DNA of 64,000 nucleotides from Thermoflexus hugenholtzii (GTDB lineage: Bacteria; Chloroflexota; Anaerolineae; Thermoflexales; Thermoflexaceae). The DNA lies in contig NZ_CP076326.1 of assembly GCF_018771565.1 (NCBI RefSeq), forward strand, positions 2,232,001-2,296,000. The letters run 5' to 3'. Below are positions 26,930 through 61,206 of this stretch, piece after piece. The first letter of the stretch is position 1; the number at the start of each line of letters is the position of its first letter. Under the pieces are notes generated by a model. The model was not told the origin of the DNA and made no database searches. It was given only the letters and a program-made list of their open reading frames with translations. Position numbers and translations under genes: made by a program.

Positions 26930-26994
26930 TCGCTCTGAGGTTCAAACCTGAGCTGGGACAGGCGGGAAGAGGCCGGGAGCCGAACCGGTTTTCG

Positions 26995-27770
26995 CAGGAA
27001 CGGCTTCCGCCGCGACCCCTGCGCCGTCGAAGCCGAAGGGTTCGGGGCGAAAGCCCCCTCCGTAATCCGAAATTCATTTCGGCATCCATGTTTGTAGGAG
27101 CGGCTTTCGCGGCGACCTTTGCGGGATCGGGAAGACAGGGTTCGAACGGTAGGAGCGGCTTCAGCCGCGACCCTTTGTGTCATCGAAAACTGGAGGTCCG
27201 GAGTTGTCGAGGCGGCTTCCATTCCGACCATCTCATCATCGAAGACGGAGGTTCGGGGCTAAAGCCCCTCCTACAAAAATCGTCTTTTGGTAGGAGCGGC
27301 TTTCGCCGCGACCATTGCGTCATCGAAGACGGAGATTCGGGGTTGCAGGGACGGCCTTCACCAGGACCCTTTGCGGCCTCGAAGACAGGTTCGGGGCTAA
27401 AGCCCCTCCTACAAAAATCGTCTTTTGGTAGGAGCGGCTTTCGCCGCGACCTTCGCGTCATCGAAGACGGAGGTTCAGGGTTGCAGGGATGGCCTTCACC
27501 AGGACCCTTTGCGGCCTCGAAGACAGATTCGGGGCTAAAGCCCCTCCTACAAAAATCGTCTTTTGGTAGGAGCGGCTTTAGCCGCGACCTTTGCGTCATC
27601 GAGAGCCAGGGGTTTGGGGTTGTCGGGGTGGTGTCCGTTGTGACCCTTGCGTCATCGAAGGCGGAAGGTTCGGGGCGAAAGATCCTCCTACAAAAACCGT
27701 CTTTCGTAGGAACGGCTTCCGCCGCGACCCTTGCATCATCGAAGACGGAGGGCCCGGGGCGAAAGCCATT
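26995..27770. repeat. REP-like hairpin array, about 138-bp period
   Basis: At least six copies of GTAGGAGCGGCTTTCGCCGC-like sequence are present. Most alternate with an opposite-type element, GGGGCTAAAGCCCCTCCTAC. Left elements start at 27290, 27428, 27566 and 27706, giving a period of 138-140 bp. Each element forms a 5-bp stem with a 4-base loop. The look is that of REP/BIME elements known from gamma-proteobacteria and linked there to RAYT transposases. No RAYT gene is in the window and none of the ORFs crossing the array is credible. Confidence 0.85.
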
Positions 27771-27845
27771 CATTTCGACCGTCATCCCGTCCGGTGCCGA
27801 GGCCTCGCCCGTTCTCGGCGGGGTTTTCCAGTTTTTCCGCATGTA

Positions 27846-40159: not shown

Positions 40160-40189
40160 CTTCCCCTCACCTCCCGGGATAGATGTGTG

Positions 40190-40895
40190 CCGAATGAATT
40201 CGGCCTCCAGAGGCCTCCGGCCGATGGTCGGCCTGCGCCGACCAAAAAGGCATCCTTTGCGTCGGCGAAGGCCGACGCCCGGCGCATAGCGCCCGAAGAG
40301 GCCGATTTCAATCGGCGCGAAGGCCTCCGGCCGACGACCAGCCTGCACGCCGAATGAATTCGGCCTCCAGAGGCCTTCGGCCGATGGTCGGCCTGCGCCG
40401 ACCAAAAAGGCATCCTTTGCGTCGGCGAAGGCCGACGCCCGGCGCATAGCGCCCGAAGAGGCCGATTTCAATCGGCGCGAAGGCCTCCGGCCGACGACCG
40501 GCCCGCACACCGAATGAATTCGGCCTCCAGAGGCCTCCGGCCGATGGTCGGCCTGCGCCGACCAAAAAGGCATCCTTTGCGTCGGCGAAGGCCGACGCCT
40601 GGCGCATAGCGCCCGAAGAGGCCGATTTCAATCGGCGCGAAAGCCTTCGGCCCGCGGTCGGCCTGCGCCGACCAAAAAGGCATCCTTTGCGTCGGCGAAG
40701 GCCGACGCCCGGCGCATAGCGCCCGAAGAGGCCGATTTCAATCGGCGCGAAAGCCTTCGGCCAACGGTCGGCCTGCGCCGACCGAGAAAACCCTTCGCGT
40801 CGGCGAAGGCCGACACCCGGCGCATAGCGCCCGAAGAGGCCGATTTCAATCGGCATCAGGGCCTTCGGCCCGCGGTCGGAATGCGCCGACCGTTT
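40190..40895. repeat. hairpin-train repeat array 1 (160-bp and about 110-bp units)
   Basis: Three full 160-bp units start at GAATGAATTC near 40192, 40352 and 40512, then shorter units of about 110 bp follow. Each full unit is a string of short palindromes with 2-4 base loops: GCCGAATGAATTCGGC, GGCCTCCAGAGGCC, GGTCGGCCTGCGCCGACC, GTCGGCGAAGGCCGAC, GGCGCATAGCGCC and GCCGATTTCAATCGGC. There are no unique spacers. Long minus-strand frames through it are by-products of the repeat length. A second array is at 57962-59130. Confidence 0.9.
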
Positions 40896-54456: not shown

Positions 54457-54667
54457 CTCCTTCTCCTCCGGAGGGCTCTGCACGGTAAGCAGGTCTATTA
54501 TGACAGAACACAGGCCCCATCCCGATGTCCCCACCCAGTTCGTGAAATCCCAGCCGCTCCTCGCTCTCCAGCAGGGGCTCTACCCAATCCGGCCGCTCGC
54601 GATAGAGGGCCGCCCGCTCCCGGATCAGCCATTCCGACAGGGGAAGCGCTTTCCCGCCCATGAAAAC

Positions 54668-54753
54668 GTGAAAACGCGCCCTGCCGATCGATCCGCCCTC
54701 ATGGCCATTCGTGAAAACGCGCCCTGCCGATCGATCCGCCCTCATGGCCATTA
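54668..54753. repeat. two tandem copies of a 43-bp sequence
   Basis: 54668-54710 and 54711-54753 are identical except for the last base. Each contains GATCGATC and starts GTGAAAACGCG. Confidence 0.9.
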
Positions 54754-57029: not shown

Positions 57030-57929
57030 CTACAGGATCTGCTGACCCAGCAGGGAGGCGAGCAGCTCCACGGCCAGCTCGGCGGTGCGGTTGCGCTCGT
57101 CCAGGATCGGGTTGATCTCCACCACATCCACCGAGCCCACCCGGCCGCTATCGGCCAGGATCTCCATCATCAAATGGGCTTCGCGATAGGTCAGCCCGCC
57201 GGGCACCGGCGTGCCCACCCCGGGCGCCACCTGGGGATCCAGGACGTCGAGGTCCAGGCTGACGTGGAGGCGCGGCCACGCCTTCAGGCGGGTGAGGGCC
57301 TGCCGGACCACCGTGGCGATCCCCAGCTCGTCGATCTCCCGCATGGTGAAAATCAGCATGCCGCTCTCCGCCATGGCCCGGCGTTCCTCGGGGTCCAGAG
57401 AGCGCACCCCGATGAGGACGACCTGTTCGGGCCGAAGCTTGGGCTCCGGCCCGCCGATCTGGATCAGGCGGGGGTGGCCCCGGCCGACCAGATGGGCCAG
57501 TGGCATGCCATGGATGTTGCCGGAGGGCGAGGTCTCCGGCGTATTGAAATCCCCGTGGGCGTCGATCCACAACACGCCGGTCGGCCCCGCCGCAGCGATG
57601 ATCCCGGCGATCGTCCCCATGGCGATGGAATGATCTCCGCCCAGGATGATGGGGAAGCGCCCATCCGCCACCGTCTCCCGCACCGCCTGGAACACCCGCT
57701 CACAGGTCTCGGCCACCGCCTCCAGGTGGCGCATCCCGCCGGGGCCGACGGCACGCACCTCCTCCGGGACCGGCACGATGATGTTTCCTCCGTCCTCCAC
57801 CTGGTAACCCAGGCCCTCCAGGCGGGCCTGCAGACCAGCGTAGCGGACCGCGCTGGGCCCCATGTCCACGCCGCGCCGCCCCTGCCCCAGGTCCATGGGC
57901 ACGCCCAGGATGCGAACCGGACGCCGCAT
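57030..57929 (-). CDS. rocF: arginase
   Basis: Arginase hydrolyses arginine to ornithine and urea using two manganese ions. The metal ligands are His100 (GGDHS), Asp123, His125 and Asp127 (DAHGDFN), and Asp226 and Asp228 (SLDLDVLDP). The [13 protein letters not shown] segment near the N-terminus separates arginase from agmatinase. The 299-residue length fits. The ATG at 57929 has GGAGGGGAG upstream. The frame stays open far upstream through repeat array 2, but that part is not protein-like. Confidence 0.92.
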
Positions 57930-57961
57930 CTCCCCTCCGTATCGTTCCCGTGATCGTGTCC

Positions 57962-59130
57962 AATGAATTCGGCCTCCAGAGGCCTTCGGCCGACGGTCGG
58001 CCTGCGCCGACCGAAGAATCCCCTTTGCGTCGGCGAAGGCCGACGCCCGGCGCGCAGCGCCTTTGAAGGCCGATTTCAATCGGCGCAGAGCCTCCGGCCC
58101 ACGGTCGGCCTGCACGCCGAATGAATTCGGCCTCCAGAGGCCTTCGGCCCACGGTCGGCCTGCGCCGACCGAAGAATCCCCTTTGCGTCGGCGAAGGCCG
58201 ACGCCCGGCGCGCAGCGCCTTTGAAGGCCGATTTCAATCGGCGCAGAGGCCTGCGGCCCACGGTCGGCCTGCACGCCGAATGAATTCGGCCTCCAGAGGC
58301 CTTCGGCCGACGGTCGGCCTGCGCCGACCGAAGAATCCCCTTTGCGTCGGCGAAGGCCGACGCCCGGCGCGCAGCGCCTTTGAAGGCCGATTTCAATCGG
58401 CGCAGAGCCTCCGGCCCACGGTCGGCCTGCGCCGACCGAAGAATCCCCTTTGCGTCGGCGAAGGCCGACGCCCGGCGCATAGCGCCCGAAGAGGCCGATT
58501 TCAATCGGCGCAGAGCCTTCGGCCCACGGTCGGCCTGCACGCCGAATGAATTCGGCCTCCAGAGGCCTTCGGCCCACGGTCGGCCTGCGCCGACCGAAAA
58601 TCCCCTTTGCGTCGGCGAAGGCCGACGCCCGGCGCATAGCGCCCGAAGAGGCCGATTTCAATCGGCGCAGAGCCTCCGGCCCACGGTCGGCCTGCGCCGA
58701 CCGAAGAATCCCCTTTGCGTCGGCGAAGGCCGACGCCCGGCGCGCAGCGCCTTTGAAGGCCGATTTCAATCGGCGCGAAGGCCTTCGGCCCACGGTCGGC
58801 CTGCACGCCGAATGAATTCGGCCTCCAGAGGCCTCCGGCCGACGGTCGGCCTGCGCCGACCGAAGAATCCCCTTTGCGTCGGCGAAGGCCGACGCCCGGC
58901 GCGCAGCGCCCCAAAAGGCCGATTTCAATCGGCGTGAAAGCCTCCGGCCCGCGGTCGGCCTGCGGGTTGAATGAATTCGACCTTGGGAGGCCTTCGGCCG
59001 ACGGTCGGCCTGCGCCGACCGAAGAATCCCCCTTTGCGTCGGCGAAGGCCGACGCCCGGCGCGCAGCGCCCCGAAAGGCCGATTTCAATCGGCGTGAAAG
59101 CCTCCGGCCCACGGTCGGCCTGCGCCGGTC
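57962..59130. repeat. hairpin-train repeat array 2
   Basis: This 1.17-kb array between the arginase and HAD genes is built from the same palindromes as array 1, with about six GAATGAATTC-containing units and shorter ones mixed in. Variants such as GGCGCGCAGCGCC for GGCGCATAGCGCC are common. One unit reads GGTTGAATGAATTCGACC (58965-58982), where changes on both arms keep most pairing. No unique spacers and no credible ORFs are present, though frames are open on both strands. Confidence 0.9.
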
Positions 59131-59183: not shown

Positions 59184-59852
59184 TCAATAGAAGCGCTCGA
59201 TGGGCCATCCCCGCCGGCGGGCCAGCCGGCGCAGCCGAAGATCGGGGTTCACCGCCACCGGATGGCCGACCCGCAGCAAGAGCGGGAGATCCGTATAGCT
59301 ATCCGTGTAGAAGTAGCTGCGGGAGAGGTCCACGCCTTTCTCCGCCGCGTAGCGCTCGGCCCAGTAGACCTTCCCCGGGCCGTAGCACGGAGGCTCCACC
59401 ACCCGGCCGGTGAGGCGTCCGTCCACCACCTCCAGGCGAGTGCAGAGATAATCGGGGATCCCCAGGGCCTCCGCCAGGGGGCGGACCACATATTCCGTGG
59501 CAGCGGAGATCAGGGCCACCCGATGTCCCCGCCGGCGATGGGCCTCGATCCGCTCCACGGCCCCGGGAGCGATATACGGCCGCACCCACTCCTCGAACCA
59601 GCGCCGGGTCTCCTCCCGGAAGGCGCCTTCATCGGCGCCGGCGATCATCGCCGTGAGGCGGGCGCTGGCCCGGGGGAACTCCAGCAACCCCAGATAATAC
59701 CGCAACGCCAGCCATAGGAACGTCCACCAGAGCGCCCCCGTCATCCGGCCGCTGCGACGCAGATAGCGCACCCACTGCCTCCCCGAGCTCACCGAGAGCA
59801 CCGTGTGGTCCACATCGAAGAACGCCGCGATCTCCCCGCCTTCCGGTTCCAT
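59184..59852 (-). CDS. HAD-IB family phosphatase
   Basis: This 222-residue hydrolase belongs to the SerB-like HAD-IB group. Motif I is FFDVDHTVL with Asp13 and Asp15, motif II lies around VALISAATEYVVRPLAEALG and motif III with the acidic pair is YFYTDSYTDLPLL. Relatives hydrolyse phosphoserine or related small phosphates; the substrate is unknown. The ATG at 59852 has GGAGG 8 bases upstream. It lies downstream of fabF, separated by a terminator-like hairpin. Confidence 0.85.
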   Translation of the reverse strand: MEPEGGEIAAFFDVDHTVLSVSSGRQWVRYLRRSGRMTGALWWTFLWLALRYYLGLLEFPRASARLTAMIAGADEGAFREETRRWFEEWVRPYIAPGAVERIEAHRRRGHRVALISAATEYVVRPLAEALGIPDYLCTRLEVVDGRLTGRVVEPPCYGPGKVYWAERYAAEKGVDLSRSYFYTDSYTDLPLLLRVGHPVAVNPDLRLRRLARRRGWPIERFY

Positions 59853-59897
59853 CCCGCTCGCCTCCCCGCCGCTTGGCCCCAGGGTCCCCCGAACAAA

Positions 59898-59927
59898 GAT
59901 CGGACGGAGGATCCTCTCCGTCCGATC
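59898..59927 (-). terminator. terminator after fabF
   Basis: A perfect 12-bp stem (59898-59909 with 59916-59927) is followed on the minus strand by TTTGTTC. It lies between the fabF stop and the HAD gene. Confidence 0.65.
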
Positions 59928-59958
59928 CGTTTCGAGATGTAGGGACGCGGTGATCTGA

Positions 59959-61206
59959 TCACGCGCCTTCCCAGCGCTTGAGCACCAGAACGCTGTTGTG
60001 GCCACCGAACCCGAAGGCGTTGGTGATGGCGATGCGCACCTCTTTGCGGCGGGCCTGATTGGGGACGTAATCCAGGTCGCACTCCGGGTCCGGGTTCTGC
60101 AGGTTGATGGTAGGGGGGATGATTCCCTCGCGGATGGCCATGACACAGAAGATGGCCTCCAGGGCTCCCGTGGCCCCGATCATGTGGCCAGTCATGGATT
60201 TGGTGGCGCTGACCGGGATCTCGTAGGCCCGCTCGCCGAAGACCGTCTTGATGGCCAGGGTCTCGGTTTTGTCGTTGAGGGGCGTCCCGGTGCCGTGGGC
60301 GTTGATGTAATCCACCTCCTCCGGGCGGATCCCGGCTTTGCGCAGGGCCTTGGCCATCGCCCGGGCCGCCCCCGCCCCGTTCTCATCGGGGGCGATGGGA
60401 TGGTAAGCATCGGAGGTCGCCCCGTAGCCGATGATCTCGGCCAGAGGTTCGGCGCCTCGGGCCAGGGCGAACTCCAGATCCTCCAGCACCAGGACCGCCG
60501 CGCCCTCCCCCATCACCGTGCCGTCCCGATCCCGGTCGAAGGGCCGGCACGCCCCAGCGGGGTCGTCGTTGCGGCGGGACATGGCCCCGATGCGGTCGAA
60601 GGCGGCGATGCCGATGAAAGTGATGCTGGCCTCGGCGCCCCCGGCGATGCAGACCCGGCAATCTCCGCTGCGGATCAGCTCGTAGGCGATGCCGATGGCG
60701 TCCGCCCCGGCGGCGCAGGCGGAGACCGTAGCGAAGTTGGGGCCTCGGGCCCCCAGCTCGATGGCGATCTGGGCGGAGGCGCCGTCCGTGATCACCATGG
60801 GGATGACGAAGGGATGGAGCAGGCGGGGGCTCTTGTGCAGGGCCGTCTCCACCCCATCGGCGAAGGTTTGGGCTCCGCCGATGGCCGAGCCGATGATCAC
60901 CCCCACCTCATCGGCGATCTCCTCGGTGATCCGCAGCCCAGCCTGGCGCACCGCCTCCTGGGTGGCGGCCACCGCGAACTGCTCGAACCGGTCCCGCCGC
61001 CGGGCCTCCCGGGCGTCCATATAATTCAATGGATCGAACCCCTTGACCTCGGCGGCGATGCGCACGTTCAGACCGGAGGCGTCGAAGAGGGTGATCGGCC
61101 CCACGCCGGAGCGGCCGGCGACGGCGTTGGCCCACGTGGTGGGCACATCCAGCCCCAGCGGCGTGATGGCCCCCATCCCGGTGATCACCACACGACGGGG
61201 CCGCAT
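59959..61206 (-). CDS. fabF: 3-oxoacyl-ACP synthase II
   Basis: FabF condenses malonyl-ACP with acyl-ACP in fatty acid elongation. The catalytic triad is Cys164 (VSACAAGADA), His304 (NAHGTGTPLND) and His341 (MTGHMIGATGA). The protein is 415 residues, normal for FabF. The ATG at 61206 has AGGAGGAGACGA upstream. It follows efp by 34 bases on the same strand. No other fab genes are close. Confidence 0.95.
   Translation of the reverse strand: MRPRRVVITGMGAITPLGLDVPTTWANAVAGRSGVGPITLFDASGLNVRIAAEVKGFDPLNYMDAREARRRDRFEQFAVAATQEAVRQAGLRITEEIADEVGVIIGSAIGGAQTFADGVETALHKSPRLLHPFVIPMVITDGASAQIAIELGARGPNFATVSACAAGADAIGIAYELIRSGDCRVCIAGGAEASITFIGIAAFDRIGAMSRRNDDPAGACRPFDRDRDGTVMGEGAAVLVLEDLEFALARGAEPLAEIIGYGATSDAYHPIAPDENGAGAARAMAKALRKAGIRPEEVDYINAHGTGTPLNDKTETLAIKTVFGERAYEIPVSATKSMTGHMIGATGALEAIFCVMAIREGIIPPTINLQNPDPECDLDYVPNQARRKEVRIAITNAFGFGGHNSVLVLKRWEGA

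Follow-up and report, generated by a model that had tools for sequence, protein, structure and literature searches.

Arrays of two-hairpin REP-like repeats in Thermoflexus and a single-copy Y1 transposase gene as their candidate partner

So far, REP systems have been associated with hairpins that carry a GTAG tag and with TnpAREP proteins of class 2. The REP, BIME and REPIN repeats, the TnpAREP proteins (RAYTs) and the REPtrons are treated in PMC2817692, PMC3116915, PMC6006769 and PMC8266576. Subclass 1.1 is characterized by W[TS] and Y[IV]ENQ, and TnpAY1 subclass 1.2 by the signature Y---Q--HH with WQ; subclass 1.2 has no REP in the table of Quentin et al. 2018 (PMC6006769, consulted sections), where IS200-type ends are mostly lacking for it as well. 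According to the same paper, most TIRYTs belong to class 2. The CGTC-tagged repeats have no transposase, as stated in the consulted part of Di Nocera et al. 2013 (PMC3733652). Searches of the open-licence literature listed no study that links REP-like repeats to subclass 1.2 or describes them in Thermoflexus; in the available text of the Thermoflexus genome paper (PMC8129789), "transpos", "palindrom" and "mobile" do not occur, and the sole "RAYT" is an author's name.

The repeats described below resemble CGTC-tagged repeats and TIRYT/TIRtrons (PMC3733652, in part) in being short, palindromic and arranged in inverted dimers. They resemble REP, BIME and REPIN sequences in their many intergenic copies, inverted doublets and tandem clusters, and REPtrons in that one Y1 gene is flanked by its own repeats (three genomes) and that the repeat sequences vary from species to species. 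Unlike the repeats of REP/RAYT systems, the Thermoflexus arms have two hairpins each and conserved loops, and lack the GTAG/GTGG foot.

Anatomy and number of the repeat arms

The window is the whole analysed stretch of 64,000 nucleotides from Thermoflexus, a hot-spring bacterium of the phylum Chloroflexota, whose 3.32-Mb source genome is designated G000. A preliminary description of the window had reported a hairpin array and the recurrence of its palindromes 17 kb away. Both observations were confirmed, the former at 57962–59127 (array A) and the latter at 40189–40890 (array B). The features are as follows (window coordinates).

57962–59127, plus strand: array A, in which units of 159, 108 and 51 nt (F and R arms) form a mosaic that occupies the interval between two minus-strand genes
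58116–58242, plus strand: complete REPIN of array A; F arm 58116–58171, spacer, R arm 58185–58242; single-stranded DNA fold z −5.68
58275–58401, plus strand: complete REPIN of array A; F arm 58275–58330, R arm 58344–58401; fold z −6.82
58452–58509, minus strand: R arm of a 108-nt unit of array A, preceded by no F-type A hairpin
58541–58666, plus strand: complete REPIN of array A; F arm 58541–58596, R arm 58609–58666; from the A-B composite scan
58717–58774, minus strand: R arm of a 108-nt unit of array A
58807–58933, plus strand: complete REPIN of array A; F arm 58807–58862, R arm 58876–58933; from the A-B composite scan
58965–58982, plus strand: variant A hairpin of array A, GGTTGAA-TGAA-TTCGACC; C-G to T-A plus one wobble
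59036–59093, minus strand: final R arm of array A; from the A-B composite scan
40189–40890, plus strand: array B, same family as array A; F arms start at 40189, 40349 and 40510, R arms at 40259, 40419, 40579, 40689 and 40799
57030–57953, minus strand: gene of the arginase family, bordering array A on one side (PF00491, 278.7 bits); open frame, start not fixed
59184–60146, minus strand: gene of a HAD-family hydrolase, bordering array A on its other side (PF12710, 148.2 bits)

The basic unit is an inverted pair of about 126 nt composed of two arms of about 55 nt (F arm 55 nt, R arm 58 nt). Each arm contains hairpin A with the loop T-N(1-2)-AA, then a linker, then hairpin B with the loop CTNC; in the F arm these are GCCGAA-TGAA-TTCGGC, the linker GGCCTTCGGCC and GGTCGGC-CTGC-GCCGACC. 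The F and R halves are inverted homologs (alignment score 66.5, vs mean 16.4 and maximum 40.5 in 1000 dinucleotide shuffles), and the F–R unit is built like a REPIN or BIME doublet. Periods of array A reported by Tandem Repeats Finder include 159, 157 and 108 nt, the 159-nt unit being made up of two modules of 108 and 51 nt. Four REPINs folded as single-stranded DNA have z-scores from −5.7 to −7.2; a chance origin of the hairpins is excluded, since none of the 200 shuffles of each REPIN folds as well. A CRISPR was set aside as a candidate: the array units are contiguous palindromes, and variable spacers are absent.

An A-B composite was defined by an A stem of at least 5 bp with the loop T-N(1-2)-AA and a B stem of at least 5 bp with the loop CTNC, separated by a gap of at most 60. 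All composites of the window (7 forward and 13 reverse) lie inside arrays A and B. The window also contains a separate, unrelated array with a period of 138 at 26960–27790, made up of REPs of the classical GTAG type (GTAGGAGCGGCTTTCGCCGCGAC, together with its inverted form), and a perfect 43-nt tandem duplication at 54667–54752 that directly precedes a promoter-like TATAAT stretch.

A 263-nt query has 146 matches across G000. Profile searches of 31 genome stretches and the window yielded 431 arms in 37 clusters, with the F-to-R (F-first) polarity largely kept. An isolated 126-nt copy, F then R, occurs at G000:C1:634350–634475; single REPINs exist outside arrays as well. The GT[AG]G foot is missing: GTAG and GTGG are found at the 5' end of 0 and 2 of the 431 arms, and at the 3' end of 1 and 8, respectively. 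Therefore the repeats are filed as REP-like by anatomy and not as GTAG REPs. Of the 431 arms, 183 have CGTC at their 5' end, but it is paired within the stem of hairpin B rather than unpaired; this pairing, which is seen in the R arm, distinguishes the Thermoflexus arms from the CGTC-tagged repeats as given in the consulted part of PMC3733652.

Covariation of the hairpins and history of the arrays

The odd unit at 58965–58982 reads GGTTGAATGAATTCGACC, and the other units read GCCGAATGAATTCGGC. It had been noted earlier that changes on both arms of this hairpin keep the pairing. This is correct for the change from C-G to T-A, which is two-sided, whereas the other change, from C-G to a T·G wobble, is one-sided; hence the variant carries one fully compensatory change of two. 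Both the C-G and the T-A forms, as well as C·A and T·G intermediates, are found in other arrays, and the T-A form is an inherited variant.

The covariation analysis covered distinct arms of G000 and its relatives, 193 of the F type and 250 of the R type, after leaving out arms below full length and F arms opening with the A hairpin of the neighbouring R arm (246 reduced to 193). In the F arms, 98.6% of cells are paired, compared to 94.7% after shuffling, and there are 164 two-sided cells, the shuffle maximum being 94. The respective values for the R arms are 97.9% vs 96.5%, and 54 two-sided cells vs a maximum of 12. Pairing in both types of arms exceeds that in all 500 shuffles, and slid partners pair far less. 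On the arm trees, paired columns change together on one branch 20 times at 1.58 expected (about 12.7-fold), 17 of these 20 co-changes leading from a standard pair to a standard pair; unpaired stem columns, used as the control, co-change 125 times at 34.6 expected (3.6-fold). The genome-wide check proposed in the preliminary description thus gave an excess of covariation over the shuffled, slid and tree-based controls, and the selection for structure suggested there is supported by it. Template-switch correction could be a partial source of co-change between the arms of an inverted repeat.

The array positions are old at the distance between G000 and its nearest relative G004, because 30 of the 32 G004 array loci examined have flanks matching an array locus of G000. 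The same holds for 3 of 11 loci in G001 and 2 of 10 in G008, the remainder being without a look-up in G000. At the site of array A, arms are present in G004 and absent from G001, G005 and G008; these three are the remaining genomes in which a single locus carries both flanks. At the site of array B, no arms were found by profile in G002, G003, G005, G006, G007 and G008, although by eye a remnant of some 45 nt can be made out in G006. This suggests that the arrays were gained on the G000/G004 side, for array B also including G006; repeated loss is a possible alternative. All examined arrays of the G004 draft are short, which may be due to assembly collapse, and differences in array length between the two genomes G000 and G004 were therefore left out of account. 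The intergenic DNA is too diverged for exact insertion junctions to be read, and no movement of the repeats was seen in the compared Thermoflexus genomes. At one further locus, G008 (L123) has a 1.3-kb array where only a remnant of 29 nt is left in G000 (L052, C1:1848304–1848332), the flanks being conserved.

The TnpA gene and its relatives

The domain PF01797 matches four places in G000. A TnpA of 144 aa is encoded on the minus strand at G000:C1:1827597–1828028, between two arrays and inside an arm cluster; it is present in one copy in the genome, compared to the 431 arms. Its orthologs in two other Thermoflexus species, G003 (82% identity) and G008 (78%), have arms on both sides. Beyond the gene and the arms, the DNA around tnpA of these three genomes gives no long match, so the genes occupy different chromosomal sites. 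The Y1 transposase with matching ends that the preliminary description proposed to look for is therefore present as a HUH TnpA flanked by arms on both sides. The mobility mechanism requiring hairpins, also raised there, is borne out in part: the Y1 gene is indeed flanked by the same palindromes, but the array sites are mostly common to G000 and its nearest relative.

The catalytic motifs of the G000 protein are DHLH (HxH), WQ and YIQRQKEHH (Y---Q--HH). H-H, WQ, Y and Q are invariant in A1, and HH is nearly so; the variable position of DH[IV]H is occupied by L in G000 and by V, L, I, M or A in the relatives. The protein passes the model NF033573 (transpos_IS200; 58.3 vs the cut-off of 55). Unlike a RAYT, it fails the model NF047646 (REP_Tyr_transpos; 25.4 bits vs the cut-off of 80) and lacks the motif Y---NP, having YIQRQKEHH. 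Among 26 relatives, NF033573 matches all 26 and NF047646 matches 21 at E ≤ 0.001, the latter count following an E-value criterion and not a per-protein cut-off. An AlphaFold model of the ortholog from Thermoflexus sp. SKYG36 (pLDDT 90.7) has the TnpA proteins of ISDra2 and IS608 as its best PDB matches, and the REP-associated transposase 4er8 is a weaker match at rank 30. Thus the fold, the catalytic motifs, the NF033573 score and the PDB matches are like those of IS200/IS605 TnpA, but the Thermoflexus gene is single-copy, has WQ for W[TS], and nothing indicates that an element with fixed ends moves and carries the gene with it. The traits of subclass 1.1 (W[TS], Y[IV]ENQ, high-copy near-identical IS) are not seen in this protein with its WQ, YIQRQKEHH and one copy. 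It shares with subclass 1.2, as listed in the consulted sections of PMC6006769, Y---Q--HH, WQ, the length (144 aa, listed as about 148), the low copy number and homologs in Cyanobacteria; it differs from that listing in that most of the alpha-clade members considered here have flanking palindromes. We file it, by motif only, as a putative TnpAY1 of subclass 1.2.

No TnpA was found in the draft assemblies of G001, G004 and G006, which have arrays; hence tnpA is not needed to keep them. The ortholog in G051 (L109:4084–4506) has lost the HUH motif by a short deletion and is therefore probably dead, its flanking palindromes being still there. A true RAYT at G000:C1:304772–305101 (L063:1363–1929; NF047646, 121.5 bits) was ruled out as the partner of the arrays: its flanks are of the GTAG type, matching the repeats at 27148–27751 of the window, and the A-B motif is absent from them. 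G000 holds two separate REP systems. A RAYT-like Y1 domain (HVHVL ... YIENNP) at G000:C1:2865282–2865512 lies in frame within an open frame of at least 859 aa (L064:1–2577, minus strand), the remainder of which resembles a DUF1156-type methyltransferase; the domain is an in-frame insertion that leaves both parts readable.

Relatives of TnpA were collected by a protein-only scan of genome contigs, 80 of 194 loci being kept. They span Chloroflexota (the main hosts in this sample), Cyanobacteria, Gemmatimonadota and Abditibacteriota. Near flanks contain 168 A-B composites in 66,980 bp (2.51 per kb) and the DNA at 1–2.4 kb contains 5 in 196,331 bp (0.025 per kb), a 100-fold difference in density; five shuffles of each near flank contain none. 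An A-B pair within about 400 nt is present on at least one flank of 68 of the 80 loci and on both flanks of 46. It is absent from 12 loci, 5 of which show it once 4-bp stems are allowed. The upstream composite mostly faces the gene, with A coming before B (48 of 79), whilst the downstream one is mostly inverted (50 of 79). This count is not blind, because the motif was defined after reading many of the loci.

A set outside these loci comprised 53 non-redundant ones, after 26 of 79 candidates had been dropped as repeats, near-copies of loci from the protein-only scan or sequences without a match. Here the A-B motif was found in 6 of 11 loci of the alpha clade (5 of 10 without G000 itself), in none of 34 loci of the beta clade and in none of 8 signature-less Y1 genes; the most divergent TnpA relatives lack it. 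Any repeat common to both flanks, at the 99th percentile of the control, was found in 9 of 10 alpha, 17 of 33 beta and 0 of 6 signature-less loci. Among the subclass 1.2 genes of the beta clade (loci L227–L304), repeats common to both flanks are thus frequent but of a type other than A-B, and some of the genes lack flanking repeats. In a tree of 127 proteins (3 of 130 were removed by the length or stop filter), all 72 rows labelled with the motif fall inside one branch of 86 rows, together with 14 unlabelled ones; its support is 98/87 in a tree with few columns whose bootstrap had not settled. The A-B motif test was weighted above the result of the mismatched-flank comparison (59 of 78), because the controls of the latter are confounded by repeats common to related species (control 95th percentile 30.5).

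The consensus over the 68 loci is approximately GCGNN-T(G)NAA-NNCGC, then CT, then hairpin B, the stem sequences being unlike between phyla. In 52 of the 68 arms, a CT lies 6–10 nt behind the A loop, compared to a mean of 16.1 and a maximum of 27 after shuffling. CT is the cleavage dinucleotide of the E. coli TnpAREP (PMC8266576, in part), a match that we treat as a lead only. The genome of Planktothrix rubescens contains 26 matches to the arm that lies next to its tnpA.

Origin and possible role of the repeats

We consider it likely that the arrays are REP/REPIN-like, non-autonomous hairpin DNA repeats cognate to the single-copy HUH (Y1) TnpA of subclass 1.2. Strong hairpins in intergenic DNA with covariation between standard pairs could also be expected of RNA-level elements, that is, of transcript terminators, stabilizers or attenuators, the covariation then reflecting RNA structure and the link to the transposase being secondary; E. 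coli REPs do play transcript roles (PMC6006769, consulted sections). However, G·T wobbles favour one strand of the arm (91 vs 52 events; p = 0.0014), and this preference switches to the other strand from F to R arms within one array (Fisher p = 0.0018), which would not occur if a single transcript strand were functional. The switch fits recognition of one strand per arm better than a function of one transcript strand, mutation bias being a possible alternative source of the strand preference. Moreover, the arrays occur in all gene contexts (20 codirectional, 10 divergent, 5 convergent and 2 undetermined; indicative only, as a crude gene finder was used), and an Rfam scan of the window gave a tRNA as the sole match at the gathering score. 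We regard a role at the RNA level as very improbable.

Equally doubtful is a plain satellite, whose arrays grow by slippage and unequal recombination and in one of which the TnpA gene merely landed. Local homogenization is indeed observed: R arms differ by 9.0% within arrays and by 13.2% between them (permutation minimum 11.3%), and the nearest neighbour of 92 of 159 arms is in the same array; therefore local duplication matters. What argues against the satellite is that TnpA orthologs lie within such palindromes at different sites in three Thermoflexus species, that relatives from other phyla share the architecture with unlike stems, and that single 126-nt REPINs are found alone. The repeats might instead be decayed or miniature IS200-type copies with PATE/MITE-like ends and not a REP system, given that TnpA passes the IS200 model, that single-strand transposases recognize end hairpins, and that G004 has at the site of the G000 tnpA a single REPIN with no gene, resembling a gene-less element. 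This is unlikely in view of the one TnpA copy per 431 arms in G000, the motifs WQ and Y---Q--HH in place of W[TS] and Y[IV]ENQ of subclass 1.1, and the inverted doublets formed by the arms, as in BIMEs.

We thus retain the REP/REPIN-like reading, and assign the repeats to the REP/REPtron kind as its variant and not as a separate category. By analogy with TnpAREP and IS608 (PMC8266576, in part), we infer that TnpA would bind the folded arm with its conserved loops T-N-AA and CTNC as single-stranded DNA, e.g. on the lagging-strand template, would cleave next to the palindrome, near its foot, and would move the REPIN in trans; local tandem duplication would then lengthen the arrays. On balance, we lean towards a GTAG-independent REP system, in which the subclass 1.2 clade owns a co-evolving two-hairpin repeat in several phyla, Thermoflexus being a case of its massive tandem expansion. 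The form of the clade's repeat is rather probably an A loop T-N(1-2)-AA, CT, a linker mostly of 11–25 nt and a B loop CTNC, and its hosts would seem to include Chloroflexota, Cyanobacteriota, Gemmatimonadota, Abditibacteriota and others.

If this is true, a subclass that had been linked neither to IS nor to REPs possesses a repeat family of its own in several phyla, and an orphan HUH subclass gains its substrate, with a distinct recognition logic based on two hairpins and conserved loops. It would also provide a new setting, including thermophiles, for how domesticated single-strand transposases sustain repeat populations.
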